A stretch of 6,764 bases of DNA from B21-G16 sp003644825 [NCBI: Candidatus Zhuqueibacterota bacterium] (GTDB lineage Bacteria; SM23-31; B21-G16), in contig QNDJ01000092.1 in NCBI GenBank assembly GCA_003644825.1, positions 1-6,764 on the forward strand, in the 5' to 3' direction. Numbering within the stretch: the stretch's first letter is position 1; each line of letters begins with the position of its first letter. Positions 85 through 6,764 of the stretch are shown piece by piece. The notes beneath the pieces are model-generated. The model was not told the DNA's origin, searched no databases, and was given only the letters and a program-made list of their open reading frames with translations. The position numbers and the translations under genes were made by a program.

Positions 85-2499
85 CTACTCACTCAGAATT
101 TTCATTGTTTCTTCAATTTCCTTTTTAGTTACTTTTTTTCTTATTTCTTCCAGTTCTTTAATAACCCTTGCCCATTTTTGTCCTTCAGCTGCACTGATAT
201 ATTCAAGTTGAAGTCTCTCGGGTCTGATTTTTTTTCTTTCAAGTTTATTCCATAATTTTTCAATTCTTTTTTGAGTCCATCTAACAGCATTAATATAGTG
301 GCAATCGGAAAAATGACACCCCGATACAAGCACTATTGGTGCCCCCAATTTGAAAGCATGAAATACAAATTTTTCGTCTACACGCCCGCTGCACATCGTT
401 CTTATAACTCTGTTATTCGGTGGATATTGAATCCTTGAAGTGCCCGCAAGGTCAGCACCAGGATAGGAACACCAATTACATGCAAAGGTAACAATTTTCT
501 CCTCTGGTTTCTCTGACAATATTGATTCTATTTGAGCCATTATCTGTTCATCTCTAAAATGCCTCATAATAATAGCATCCGATGGACATTCAGCAGCACA
601 GGTTCCACATCCTGCACAGGCGGCTTCTACTACCTTTGGCAGGGTTTTAGTTTTTTTATCAGGTGGAACAATCGCATGATATGGGCATACCCTTGCACAT
701 ATACCACAATAAATACATTTATCAGGTATAACCCTTGATGTAATAGCTTCGATTTTAACTTTTCCTGCATTCAAAAGAATACTTGCTCTTGCTGCGGCAG
801 CACTGGCCTGTGTAACACTATCTTTAACATCTTTAGGAGATTCAGCACAACCTGCAAAGTATACTCCTCTCGTTGGTGCATCAACCGGCTTTAACTTCGG
901 ATGGGACTCCATATAAAATCCATCAGATGTTGTCGAAAGAGTTAGAAGCTGTTTGATTATTTTATTGTCCTGCCTTGGTATTACACCAACTGAAAGAACC
1001 ACCATTTCAAGATTGTGTTTTTCAAGCTTCCCATTTGATGTGTTTTCTACCGTGAGTATAAGATTTTTTGTATTCGGGTCTTCTTCAATTTCACCGGGTA
1101 GTCCTCTAATGTATTTTACACCTTCCTGTTTGCTTCTCATATACAGGTCTTCAAACCCCTTACCAAATGCTCTTATATCCATATAGAATACTTTACATTC
1201 AACACCCGGATAATGATCTGAAAGAAGAAGAGTATCTTTCACTGTATTCATACAGCAAATATTTGAACAATATGGATTACCCCTCTTTTCTGACCTTGAA
1301 CCGACACACTGAATAAACCCAACAGTTTTTGGAACTTTTCTATCAGTTGGTCTGATAAAATGCCCTTCTGTAGGACCACTTGCACTTATCAGTCTTTCAA
1401 ATTCCATACTTGTAATTACATTTTCATACCTTGTATAACCGTATTCATCGAGTTCTGTTGGGTCATAAACGTCCATTCCTGTTGCAGTAATAATTGCCCC
1501 CGCATCAATTTCTATAATCTCATCCTGCATATCATAATCGATACATTTTTTTTCACAAGCTTCGTAACATTTTCCACAGGCAATAGGATTATTCCCCAGA
1601 CAGCTTTCCATATCCAGAGTATAAGTAGAAGGAACAGCTTGAGGAAAAGGAATGTATATAGCTTTTCTTGATGAAAATCCCTGTTGAAATTCGTCTGGAA
1701 CAATAACAGGACATACCTCAGCACAATCACTGCATGCAGTGCATTCGTTTTCATCTACATATCTTGCTTTTTTCCTGATGGTAACTTTAAAATTTCCTAT
1801 AAACCCGGTGACATTTTCAACCTCACTATAAGTGTAAAGAGTTATATTAGGATGCCGACCGACATCCATCATTTTCGGTCCAAGAATTCATATAGAGCAA
1901 TCCATTGTCGGGTAAGTTTTATCAAGGGCTGCCATAATTCCACCAATACTGGGTTCTTTTTCAACGAGAAATACTTTATGACCGGCATCCGCTAAATCAA
2001 GGGCGGCCTGGATACCCGCAACACCACCACCTATTACAAGGGCAGATTTTGTTACAGGAACCTCTGTTTCTTCCTGAGCTTCCAGAAACCTCGCCCTGGC
2101 AACTGCACTCTTTACGAGGTCTTTAGCTTTTTCAGTGGCTTTTTCTTTCTCGTATTGATGAACCCAACTGCAATGTTCCCTGATATTAGCCATTTCAAAC
2201 AGATATGGATTCAAACCAGCATCTGCAACACAGGCTCTAAAAGTAGGTTCATGGATTTTTGGAGTACAGGAAGCCACAACCACCCGATTTAAGTTATGTT
2301 CTACAATTGCTTTTTTTATTTCATTCTGACCCGGGTCAGCACAGGTGTATTTGTTCTGCATTACACAAACAACATCGTCCAGTGTTTTTGCAAACTCCGA
2401 TACTTCATTACAGTTCACTGTTCCTGCAATATTAGTACCGCATTCGCAAACAAATACACCTATTCTGAGTTCACCATTAGTTTTTTTTGATACTGGCAA
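85..2499 (-). CDS. hdrA: Selenocysteine-containing HdrA-MvhD fusion protein (804 aa, UGA read through)
   Basis: Electron-transferring flavoprotein subunit of a heterodisulfide-reductase-type complex, expected to be cytoplasmic. An in-frame TGA at 1890-1888 interrupts the reading frame, but the protein on both sides is one uninterrupted HdrA. The residues around it read MDCSI-U-ILGPKM, the conserved HdrA site that holds Cys or Sec in known members. Domains: N-terminal HdrA domain with C18, C20, C53, C78; FAD-binding GGGxAG at about 157-162; Sec204; inserted ferredoxin with C253/C256/C259/C263 and C300/C308/C311/C315; the HdrA core motif IQCVGSR with Cys at 398, 411, 415, 416; second FAD motif near 548-570; ferredoxin with C595/C598/C601/C605 and C628/C631/C634/C638; then a fused MvhD domain from about 665 with the five family cysteines C674, C677, C703, C728, C733, which bind [2Fe-2S] in the family. 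The start is TTG at 2499, chosen because AGGAGGTGA lies 9 nt upstream and no ATG is nearby. The stop is TAG. The gene lies 18 bp after the HdrCB gene. A pseudogene is unlikely, since only one codon is affected, at the known Sec site. Confidence 0.93.
1850..1867 (-). promoter_or_regulatory. Bacterial SECIS hairpin for the HdrA UGA
   Basis: The mRNA folds as GGAUGUC-GGUC-GGCAUCC: a 7-bp stem with one G-U wobble closing a 4-nt loop GGUC. The stem begins 21 nt and the loop 28 nt after the UGA, within the 16-37 nt distance expected for bacterial SECIS loops. The loop starts with GG followed by U, matching the bacterial rule of a guanine in the first two loop positions and resembling the GGUC core of the Escherichia coli fdhF loop bound by SelB. 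The hairpin lies inside the coding sequence and encodes D-V-G-R-H-P in part. A strong lower stem is not evident. The fold was found by eye, without an energy calculation. Confidence 0.8.
1888..1890 (-). other. In-frame UGA selenocysteine codon (Sec204 of HdrA)
   Basis: The mRNA reads ATG GAT TGC TCT ATA TGA ATT CTT GGA, giving M-D-C-S-I-U-I-L-G. HdrA proteins carry Cys, or in known selenoprotein versions Sec, at this place, three residues after the Cys of the DCS motif. The frame stays open for 203 codons before and 600 codons after the TGA, and both halves match HdrA without gap or frame change. A SECIS-like hairpin starts 20 nt after the codon. Reading it as Sec is inference from family and context; the host's selA/selB/selC/selD genes are not in view. 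Confidence 0.92.
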
Positions 2500-2505
2500 A
2501 TTTAT

Positions 2506-2514
2506 TCACCTCCT
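2506..2514 (-). promoter_or_regulatory. Strong Shine-Dalgarno site deciding the TTG start of Sec-hdrA
   Basis: AGGAGGTGA on the minus strand is a near-perfect complement of the 16S rRNA 3' end and sits 9 nt (counted from GGAGG) before TTG at 2499. It lies in the 18-bp gap after the TAA of the HdrCB gene. No ATG or GTG is better placed, so it fixes the rare TTG start. Confidence 0.85.
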
Positions 2515-4170: not shown

Positions 4171-6764
4171 TCATAATTCTGAGTATGCAGAATCTATCAT
4201 AGAATAAATTTGTTTATCAGTAAAATGTTTTGCAGTAATTGCACCAGTTGGGCACCAGGAAGCACAGGTGCCACATCCTTTACAAAGAACTTCATTAATT
4301 CTTGAAACATACACTCCAGGACTTTTTTCAATTAATTCAGGAGCATGAAATTCACAAATAGAAACACACTTTCCACAGGCTCTGCATAAATTCTCATCTA
4401 CTACTGCAGTTGTGGGCTCAATTTCTGTTGTATCAGTATATATAATGGAAGCAACTTTACCCGCTGCTGCAGAAGCCTGACTCATAGAATCCGAAATATC
4501 TTTAGGGCTTTGAACACAACCACATAGATAAACCCCTTCTGATGTTGTTTCCACGGGACCCAGTTTAGCATGCCTTTCCATAAAGAAACCATCGAGTCCT
4601 CTTGGTACCTTAAGTAATTCGTGTAACTTTCCCGTTCCCTCTTCATCAGGAACCATAGCTACCGCCAGAACAACAAGGTCTACCGGGACCTCAATATCCT
4701 TTTTAAAAATCTCCATATAAAAGTTTATTTTTTCAGCTTTTGTTTTTCCAGAAACTTCAGGCTCATTTTTTGGGTCATATCTAATAAATTTTACACCCTG
4801 TTTTCGAGCTTCTCTGTATAATTCTTCTGTTCCAGGAGCTACAGTTCTAATATCTCTATAGAATACCACAGAATTTATTCCTTTTTTCTTGAGTTCAATA
4901 GATTGCTTTATAGTTGTAGGACAGCAATACCTTGAGCAGGTCGGGTTTTCTTTACATCTTGAACCGACACATTGAATGAAGGCAACAGTTTTTATTTTAG
5001 CTAAAACTTCATCATTATTTTTCAAAATTGATTCTAATTCCTGGTTTGTAATAACATTTTCAAATTTTTCATATCCAAATTTATTGCCCGGCTTATATAA
5101 AGCTGAACCTGTAGCAAGAACAATTGTCCCGGTTTTAAATGTTCCGTTACTGGTTGAAACTTCAAAATTACCTACAAATCCATTTATTTGTTCAATATTA
5201 CAACCTGTATAAATTTTTACTTTGCTTTTTTCCAATTCTTTTAGCTTTCTGTCCAGGAGTTCACCTGCTGAGATTCCATAAGGATATAAATTATGGAGGA
5301 GGTTCAATCTTCCTCCGAGTTTTTTTTCTTTTTCTATAAGGAAAACCTCAAACCCCTGGGCATCAAGGTCAAGGGCACATTGTATTCCTGAGATTCCACC
5401 ACCAATTATTAATGCTTTCTGGTCAATCTTTATTCTGTTTTTTGTAAGAGGTGAAAGGAATCTTGCCCTTGAAACCGCCATCCTGATCTGGTCTTTTGCT
5501 CTTTCAGTTGCGTTTTCAGGTTCAAAAGAATGAACCCAGGAACACTGGTCTCTTATATTTACCATTTCAAACAGGTATGGGTTCAGTCCTGCCATAAAAC
5601 AGGATTCCCGAAATATCGGTTCATGGGTTCTTGGAGTACAGGCAGCAGCAACAACTCTTGTTAATTTTTCCTCTTTAATAACTTGCTGGATTCTTGACTG
5701 ACCGGTATCCGAACATAAAAAGAGATTGTCTTCAACAAAAGTTACATAAGGCAATGTTTTAACATAATCTAATATTTCAGATATATTGAGAACACCGGCT
5801 ATATTTATTCCACAATGACAAACAAAAACACCAATTCTTGGTGGTCCACTTATATCTACAGGTTCAATCTTGACTTCCTTTTTGGGAAGACGATACGCAG
5901 AAACATATTTTTCAGCTTTTGAGGCTGCTGCTGTAGCCTGAGCCACTGATTCAGATATATCATAGGGACCCGAAGAACAACCACAAAGAAATATCCCATC
6001 TCTTGTTGTTTCTACTGCTGTTATATTTGATTTTTCTGTCTGAAAAAATCCACTCTTATCAAGCTCAATTCCAAGTATCCGGGCAAGTTTCTCACTTCCC
6101 TTAGATGGTAATGCAGTGGATGATAGAACTACCATTTCACTCCTGATAAACTTAAGTTCTCCCGTTAACGTGTCTTCAACATGAATCATTAAGTCACCGG
6201 TCTTTCTGTCTTCATCAATTCGCGCAGGTCTTCCCCTTATATATTCAATTTCACCTGTTTCCAATGACCGCTGATAAAATTCTTCAAATCCTTTGCCGGC
6301 AGCTCTCATATCTATATATAATACATTCAATTTCTTAATGCCGGGTTCATGCTGTTTTACCAGCATACAATCTTTAATGGTATTCAAACAACAATACCTT
6401 GAACAATACTGATTACCTGCTTCGCCTCTCGCTCCAACACATTGAATAAATGTTATGGATTCAGGAGATTTTTTATCAGAAGGCCTTAAAATGTGACCAT
6501 TAGTTGGTCCGGAAGCGCTCAACATCCTCTCGAGCTCTAGTTGAGTTAAAACATTTTTATAAAGACCATATCCATAAGGCTTTATAATTTCAGGATTCAA
6601 AACATCAAATCCTGTAGCTACAATAATAGAACCCACTATCTTTTCAATTATCCTATCTTTTTGCTCCCAATCAATAGCATTTACACTACAGAATTTTTCG
6701 CATGCTTTACATTTACCCCTCTGGAAAAATATACAATTTTCTTTATCAATAACAGGTTTATTTG
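4171..6764 (-). CDS. hdrA: Tandem HdrA-HdrA flavoprotein, 5' end beyond the window (863 residues visible)
   Basis: FAD and iron-sulfur subunit of the Hdr complex with two HdrA modules in one chain. The frame is open to the window edge; the GTG at 6636 is internal, because the 42 residues before it hold an HdrA ferredoxin motif (visible residues C10, C18, C21, C25). Module 1, visible residues 1 to about 300, has the end of the inserted ferredoxin, the IQCVGAR core with following YCSRYCC, and the FAD motif FLCGCSSGPYDISES. It then runs straight into module 2 without its own C-terminal ferredoxin. Module 2, about 307-863, has N-domain cysteines 315, 317, 350, 375, FAD motif GGGISG near 453-458, the IQCVGSR core near 596, and a C-terminal ferredoxin with C793/C796/C799/C803 and C827/C830/C833/C837. 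Module 2 has no inserted ferredoxin and no Cys or Sec at the site that carries Sec204 in the downstream HdrA. The stop TGA is backed by an in-frame TAA two codons later. The FAD and first Cys/Sec site of module 1 lie outside the window. Confidence 0.93.
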   Translation of the reverse strand, partial: NKPVIDKENCIFFQRGKCKACEKFCSVNAIDWEQKDRIIEKIVGSIIVATGFDVLNPEIIKPYGYGLYKNVLTQLELERMLSASGPTNGHILRPSDKKSPESITFIQCVGARGEAGNQYCSRYCCLNTIKDCMLVKQHEPGIKKLNVLYIDMRAAGKGFEEFYQRSLETGEIEYIRGRPARIDEDRKTGDLMIHVEDTLTGELKFIRSEMVVLSSTALPSKGSEKLARILGIELDKSGFFQTEKSNITAVETTRDGIFLCGCSSGPYDISESVAQATAAASKAEKYVSAYRLPKKEVKIEPVDISGPPRIGVFVCHCGINIAGVLNISEILDYVKTLPYVTFVEDNLFLCSDTGQSRIQQVIKEEKLTRVVAAACTPRTHEPIFRESCFMAGLNPYLFEMVNIRDQCSWVHSFEPENATERAKDQIRMAVSRARFLSPLTKNRIKIDQKALIIGGGISGIQCALDLDAQGFEVFLIEKEKKLGGRLNLLHNLYPYGISAGELLDRKLKELEKSKVKIYTGCNIEQINGFVGNFEVSTSNGTFKTGTIVLATGSALYKPGNKFGYEKFENVITNQELESILKNNDEVLAKIKTVAFIQCVGSRCKENPTCSRYCCPTTIKQSIELKKKGINSVVFYRDIRTVAPGTEELYREARKQGVKFIRYDPKNEPEVSGKTKAEKINFYMEIFKKDIEVPVDLVVLAVAMVPDEEGTGKLHELLKVPRGLDGFFMERHAKLGPVETTSEGVYLCGCVQSPKDISDSMSQASAAAGKVASIIYTDTTEIEPTTAVVDENLCRACGKCVSICEFHAPELIEKSPGVYVSRINEVLCKGCGTCASWCPTGAITAKHFTDKQIYSMIDSAYSEL

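Follow-up and report, generated by a model that had tools for sequence, protein, structure and literature searches.

A UGA-containing hdrA-mvhD fusion gene with a conserved downstream hairpin, predicted to encode a selenoprotein

Selenocysteine-containing HdrA proteins and the gene in the window

Selenocysteine (Sec) in HdrA has been in print for bacteria since 2006, including cases where two hdrA genes are neighbors (PMC1794560). It has been described in Desulfobacterium autotrophicum (PMC2702500), among the selenoproteins of a marine deltaproteobacterium (PMC8318568), and in Asgard archaea (PMC11227280). A preliminary description of the DNA studied here, which had stated that Sec in HdrA was known from Methanococcus and some bacteria, was right in this. 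The selenoprotein families already on record include the NCBIfam HdrA2 family NF040770, with its fused MvhD part (PMC13188914). We have analyzed a stretch of 6,764 nucleotides, termed the window, that contains an hdrA-mvhD fusion gene of this already known kind; Sec-HdrA itself is not new.

Like HdrAU of Methanococcus and the Sec-HdrA of Syntrophobacter, Desulfobacterium, Moorella and others, the window gene has a UGA to encode the putative Sec, and hdrA is clustered with mvhD/frhD (PMC1794560, PMC2702500, PMC11097638). Unlike those systems as they are presented in the parts of these sources that we consulted, the HdrA and MvhD of the window are fused in one gene, the operon adds hdrCB and probably 2-oxoacid oxidoreductase genes, and the relatives come mostly from uncultured lineages. 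The domain order, HdrA with a C-terminal MvhD, is that of HdrA2 or type Ia HdrA (NF040770; PMC12054007). Archaeal type Ia HdrA is not described as Sec-containing in the consulted part of PMC12054007, whereas the window gene has a UGA and a bacterial SECIS.

A further comparison is with clusters of methane-metabolizing archaea that encode a fused two-module (type II) HdrA and may also hold a further HdrA and HdrD (PMC12054007, PMC9012536). As in those clusters, the two-module HdrA has MvhD, an HdrCB-type protein and a second HdrA as neighbors, and the Cys197 site and the N-terminal domain are complementary between modules. In contrast to archaeal type II HdrA, the Sec module comes first and is without the N-terminal domain, and Sec replaces Cys197; the module order is thus opposite to that of the fused HdrAs of PMC9012536. 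A 2-oxoacid oxidoreductase takes the place of the FdhB and molybdopterin protein of the archaeal clusters.

Within the portions of main text covered by our literature search there was no report of a broad distribution of Sec-HdrA-MvhD, nor of a double-Sec Hdr operon with 2-oxoacid oxidoreductase, and within the same coverage no statement was found on Zixibacteria with Sec and Hdr or on Hdr clusters that include 2-oxoacid oxidoreductase. New here are the presence of the UGA in 73 of the 80 closest of 182 relatives, a probable second UGA-HdrA that follows 2-oxoacid:ferredoxin oxidoreductase genes in this operon, and the match of the Sec site to a residue reported to ligate an Fe-S cluster of the partner subunit.

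Table 1. Coordinates of the features in the window
Feature	Position	Strand	Remarks
hdrA-mvhD fusion gene	85..2499	minus	804 codons counting one TGA, TTG start, TAG stop
MvhD (FlpD, PF02662) domain, residues 669-785	145..495	minus	fused to HdrA
HdrA C-terminal two-cluster ferredoxin domain, ~residues 590-645	565..732	minus	in the HdrA part
Bacterial SECIS hairpin	1850..1867	minus	stem 1867-1861/1856-1850, loop GGUC 1860-1857
UGA codon 204, putative Sec	1888..1890	minus	aligns with Cys197 of 5odc_A
Ribosome-binding site AGGAGGTG	2507..2514	minus	7 nt 5' of the hdrA-mvhD TTG
hdrCB-type gene, 387 aa	2518..3681	minus	Fer4 and two CCG stretches
Separate mvhD gene, 145 aa	3691..4128	minus	without in-frame UGA; TGA stop
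Two-module hdrA, single frame	4171..6762	minus	5' end cut by contig end; TGA stop

The features of the window are collected in Table 1. The preliminary description had proposed one gene of 804 codons crossing a UGA that lies on a conserved HdrA site, with HdrA sequence in the same frame on both sides and MvhD fused to it. All of this held on the minus strand, as did its forecast that standard annotation would break the gene, which translation table 11 splits into ORFs of 203 and 595 aa. Residues 10-661 match the solved HdrA 5odc_A in one stretch (phmmer, 1.6e-250). The alignment is gapless around the UGA, and residue 204 falls on residue 197 of that chain, a Cys inside the motif DCSICIL. The whole translation scores 1210.5 bits against NF040770, for which the cut-off is 1100, and the C-terminal MvhD domain of type Ia HdrA/HdrA2 is present. 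In an alignment with the relatives examined below, the N-terminal Cys 18, 20, 53 and 78 are conserved in 80 of the 80 rows that cover them, and Cys 253, 256, 259, 263, 300, 308, 311, 315 and 319 in 81/81 rows, as are Cys 398, 411, 415 and 416 and the Cys within 595-638. Judged from this alignment, the N-terminal, inserted and C-terminal ferredoxin Cys and the CX..CX3CC motif of HdrA are kept. On its sequence, the region is one hdrA-mvhD gene and not two.

Conservation of the UGA codon and the downstream hairpin

A genome collection was scanned with the window protein, and the best 80 of 182 encoded relatives were kept. The search patterns were degenerate back-translations of the protein, so that codons at the SECIS should not be favored by the search. 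Within these 80 loci codon 204 is TGA in 73 and TGT or TGC in seven; counting the window's own copy among the UGA genes gives the tally of 74 UGA and seven Cys genes used below. The TGA loci span about 15 lineages named in the sequence records, including Zixibacteria, KSB1, Calditrichota, Marinimicrobia, WOR-3, Eisenbacteria, Chloroflexi, Acidobacteria and Armatimonadetes, and all seven Cys loci are recorded as Chloroflexi, Chloroflexota or Dehalococcoidia. The recurrence of TGA in 73 other loci excludes a sequencing error in the window. The preliminary description would have given up its proposal had resequencing shown TGC or TGT, and the other loci speak for TGA. Gene finders that treat UGA as a stop would split the genes of all 73, so that annotation easily understates how far uncultured anaerobes rely on Hdr in their energy metabolism.

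A quick tree places the seven Cys rows in a single clade (SH-aLRT 100), nested among the UGA rows. Constraining the 76 UGA rows as one clade was not rejected (p-AU 0.741) and gave a higher likelihood than the unconstrained tree. A loss of Sec to Cys is therefore not shown.

Directly ahead of the site stands an Ile codon, which is ATA in 70 of the 74 UGA genes and six of the seven Cys genes, although ATA is the rarest Ile codon across the 81 genes (821/4176). This preference ahead of the UGA, kept ahead of Cys in six of seven cases, is a weak hint only as to the direction of change.

The hairpin downstream of the UGA, GGAUGUC-GGUC-GGCAUCC, has a stem of 7 bp that begins 20 nt past the UGA, with 27 nt from the UGA to the loop. 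The published rules for bacterial SECIS elements are a loop of 3-9 nt, a stem of 4-16 bp and a G in the first two loop positions, with a distance of 16-37 nt from the UGA and an MFE of at most -7.5 (figure legend of PMC13188914). The window hairpin agrees with all four published rules, having a 4-nt loop, 7 bp, GG, 27 nt and -10.0 kcal/mol. The last value is for the bare 20-nt hairpin (z -3.5). Folded in its own context, in four stretches of 41-61 nt, the window hairpin gave z values of -0.63 to +0.21, no better than shuffles. The copy on contig C344, discussed below, gave z -0.97 in a 46-nt context, and the hairpin context of one relative (L037) gave z -2.46. When the window's own codons were shuffled synonymously the hairpin was retained in 31% of draws. 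An Rfam scan of the window returned only matches below the gathering scores, with no SECIS family among them.

The comparison across relatives gives a very different result. All seven stem pairs are standard in 74/74 UGA genes, own included, and are complete in none of the seven Cys genes (best 80 of 182 relatives). Synonymous shuffling of codons +7 to +13, with codons drawn from each gene's own usage, predicts the stem, on average, in just 7.3 of the 74 UGA genes and 0.24 of the seven Cys genes. Among HdrA modules nearby, 18 of 19 of the UGA type (that on C344 included) keep all seven pairs and the exception keeps six, and neither of the two Cys-type modules has all seven. These counts use rows with enough flanking DNA and modules in which the codon is TGA, TGC or TGT, with one module per locus. 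Third positions are invariant in the 74 UGA genes at codons +8 (GAT), +9 (GTC or GCC), +10 (GGT) and +12 (CAT). Outside Met codons, the other third positions mostly have an entropy of ~0.8 to 1.95 bits, with lower values at codon -1 (0.30 bits) and at codon +11, in the stem (0.67 bits). One stem pair has undergone a two-sided swap, GTC with CGA (GUC..CGA) becoming GCC with CGG. While the element shares its constraints with the canonical bacterial SECIS (PMC13188914), it is of a type nearly fixed in sequence in the 74 UGA genes, with the consensus GGAUG(U/C)C-GGU(C/A)-G(A/G)CAU(C/U)C.

We take the conservation of the predicted hairpin across relatives to be decisive, and the hairpin to be weak when the window is judged alone. 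The SECIS-like hairpin of the preliminary description is thus present, with its pairs kept in every UGA gene, while its folding within the window context does not stand out. The contrast between UGA genes with a kept SECIS and Cys genes with a decayed one makes a clean test case for selenoprotein finders.

These data bear on the reading of UGA204 as a real stop, the locus being a pseudogene, the product of a sequencing error, or two genes, with the 595-aa ORF translated alone. The two ORFs given by table 11 would fit, as would the lack of selC from the assembly (see below). Against it, TGA occupies the same codon in the 73 loci with both sides conserved, wobble-level conservation of the SECIS is confined to UGA genes, and the cut would fall within an FAD/NAD-binding family stretch (Pyr_redox_2 at 153-241). 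We regard a real stop as very improbable.

Selenocysteine machinery of the genome

The genome of the window encodes selA (3.6e-144, contig C279). selB begins within the end of selA and runs off the same contig, with a match of 349 bits over 2-373 of 581 positions. selD, on contig C14, has one in-frame TGA, AAG-U-AAKIS, at what we take to be the usual Sec site of SelD. Ahead of it on that strand are an ORF resembling NifS and a 91-aa ORF, and after it comes a LysR-type ORF; the names of these neighbors were assigned by eye.

selC was not found in this draft genome, which is 83.6% complete; the best match to RF01852 scored 32.9 bits against a gathering score of 47. Three tRNA-Sec candidates of 73-75 nt scoring 29-33 bits were taken to be ordinary tRNAs. 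Three of five genomes of the same class (G002, G003 and G005) have selA and selC together on one contig and strand, with selC 2.0-3.4 kb further downstream. Contig C279 stops 1.3 kb past selA, so a missing piece of this incomplete draft can explain the absence. The search for sel genes proposed in the preliminary description has therefore yielded selA, selB and a UGA-containing selD, and failed for selC alone; the absence of a Sec-insertion system, which would have spoken against the proposal, did not occur.

SelA scored over the cut-off in 66 of 73 UGA-type genomes, leaving seven without, and in 7/7 Cys-type genomes (fragments at contig ends included). SelA presence consequently failed as a discriminator between UGA and Cys types, and the Cys types are not explained by a lack of machinery.

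Because the frame, the homology, the conservation of the SECIS and the set of SelA, SelB and SelD agree, Sec is very probably inserted at UGA204, as judged from comparative sequence data. hdrA-mvhD would then encode one selenoprotein of 804 residues, HdrA fused to MvhD. The sel genes, together with the conserved SECIS, suggest that the hairpin would recruit SelB and Sec-tRNA to the ribosome at this UGA.

Reading of the UGA as another amino acid such as Trp, under a variant code, would equally leave the frame open, since this is so with TGA as any residue. Yet the homologs have Cys and not Trp at the site, and two of the four window genes, mvhD and the two-module hdrA, end in TGA as an ordinary stop. 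selA, selB and the UGA-containing selD are present, and the SECIS would stay unexplained. Moreover, seven loci of the genome hold five places where TGA is flanked by at least 60 open codons on each side; these are two UGA-HdrAs, an apparent two-gene junction on contig C3, and two lying opposite a longer ORF on contig C118. A variant code has a negligible probability in our estimation.

The UGA might act in addition as a selenium-dependent switch, so that in the absence of selenium a truncated HdrA would be made and its role would pass to a Cys-type HdrA. Contig C32 of this genome does encode an HdrA of the Cys type, and in Methanococcus maripaludis Cys isoforms rise on selenium depletion (PMC11097638). 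What C32 carries is a pair of neighboring HdrA genes and not HdrA-MvhD, which counts against such a switch, and we consider it rather improbable. The Cys-type HdrA of C32 (4624-5070; NDCSLCILAPKM, in a 928-aa ORF, followed by the second HdrA gene) is a possible selenium-independent counterpart.

The operon and the role of residue 204

Genes in the window are transcribed in the order two-module hdrA, mvhD, hdrCB and hdrA-mvhD. The second module of the two-module HdrA has the N-terminal Cys domain, and Glu (GAA) at the site of residue 204. Contig C344 of the same genome carries genes for the alpha, beta and gamma subunits of a 2-oxoacid:acceptor oxidoreductase, then an HdrA module that again contains a UGA and this SECIS, and the final 83 nt of the contig are identical to the first minus-strand bases of the window. 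That overlap cannot serve as a decisive join, because an identical stretch of 123 nt opens both contig C303 and the window contig; the join is therefore ambiguous, at a fork in the assembly. Gene order in relatives favors it. In 15 of the 80 loci (best 80 of 182), korG is followed on a single strand by a first and a second HdrA module, hdrCB and hdrA-mvhD (L038, L039, L042, L044, L047, L048, L049, L053, L056, L081, L082, L094, L101, L103 and L110), an order read by eye, with fused and adjacent modules pooled. In 14 of these loci the site in the first module is UGA, and in L103 it is Cys. In the remaining loci the flanking DNA is too short, or something else lies between korG and mvhD. C344 is therefore the probable 5' part of the window's two-module hdrA, and a second UGA-HdrA probably precedes the window genes in the same operon, behind the 2-oxoacid:ferredoxin oxidoreductase genes.

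In the structure of HdrA from Methanothermobacter wolfeii, Cys197 is reported to extend to the second HdrA of the dimer, where it ligates the N-terminal Fe-S cluster (PMC9012536). That Sec is inserted in the window protein and that residue 204 is the equivalent of this Cys are, taken together, highly probable. Since Cys197 is reported as a ligand in trans, Sec204 most likely ligates the cluster of the partner. It would replace Cys197, completing the N-terminal Fe-S cluster of the partner HdrA across the dimer, and the selenolate would lie on the ferredoxin-reducing branch. The two-module pairs show what a trans ligand predicts. In 18/18 complete two-module pairs the Sec/Cys site occurs only in the module that is without the N-terminal Cys domain. 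All the first modules are without this domain, and their site holds Sec in 17 cases and Cys in one; the second modules have the four N-terminal Cys with neither Cys nor Sec at the site. The window protein carries both Sec204 and the four N-terminal Cys. Another solved HdrA sequence, 9sfi_A, has an X at exactly the position of residue 204, and this is most likely Sec; our literature search found no publication describing 9sfi. Nor, in the parts of main text it covered, did it find a statement that the Sec of HdrA is an inter-subunit cluster ligand.

Alternatively, Sec204 could pair with Cys201 as CxxU and ligate no cluster, acting near the flavin as a free selenolate in catalysis or redox sensing. 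Cys201 is invariant in 81/81 rows, and a review gives the family motif as CxxU (PMC13188914). That the aligned Cys197 is reported to ligate the N-terminal cluster of the partner argues the other way, as does the complementarity of the N-terminal domain and the Sec/Cys site in every one of the two-module pairs. We think a free selenolate unlikely, and favor a ligand in trans as the probable role of Sec204. The preliminary description had placed a selenolate beside the flavin or a cluster; this is narrowed to a probable ligand of the partner's cluster, in preference to a free selenolate by the flavin.

The partners of the fusion protein would be HdrCB, MvhD, the two-module HdrA with a Sec of its own, and the 2-oxoacid:ferredoxin oxidoreductase. 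From the gene order, the assembly would probably be a soluble flavin-based electron-bifurcating or confurcating complex. Whether the 2-oxoacid oxidoreductase is part of the complex or functionally coupled to it is evenly balanced on present gene-order evidence. More tentatively, many mostly uncultured bacteria may run a two-selenium Hdr complex composed of a two-module Sec-HdrA, Sec-HdrA-MvhD and 2-oxoacid:ferredoxin oxidoreductase, in which each Sec would ligate the [4Fe-4S] cluster of its partner across the HdrA-HdrA interface, with selenium tuning the ferredoxin branch of bifurcation. A Sec at a reported inter-subunit cluster ligand makes possible a clear test of the part played by selenium in an electron-bifurcating enzyme.

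Other hdr loci of the same genome were observed. A third UGA-HdrA lies on contig C3 (11982), with the motif NDCSI-U-ILAPKM and the hairpin GGATGCC-GGTC-GGCATCC; it adjoins an HdrCB-type ORF, another HdrA and an MvhD-like ORF. The 123 nt at the minus-strand start of the window (6642-6764) are identical to positions 1-123 of C303, lying in two HdrA paralogs, and C344 ends in 83 nt of them. This suggests a recent gene conversion or duplication, plus the assembly fork. C303 (1-3607) encodes an HdrA with its 5' end cut and an MvhD-type ORF, followed by an Fe-S-like ORF. Its last ORF, cut by the contig end, matches fumarate reductase flavoprotein, best to NF004900 below its cut-off, and the cluster is thus a possible Hdr-linked fumarate reductase.
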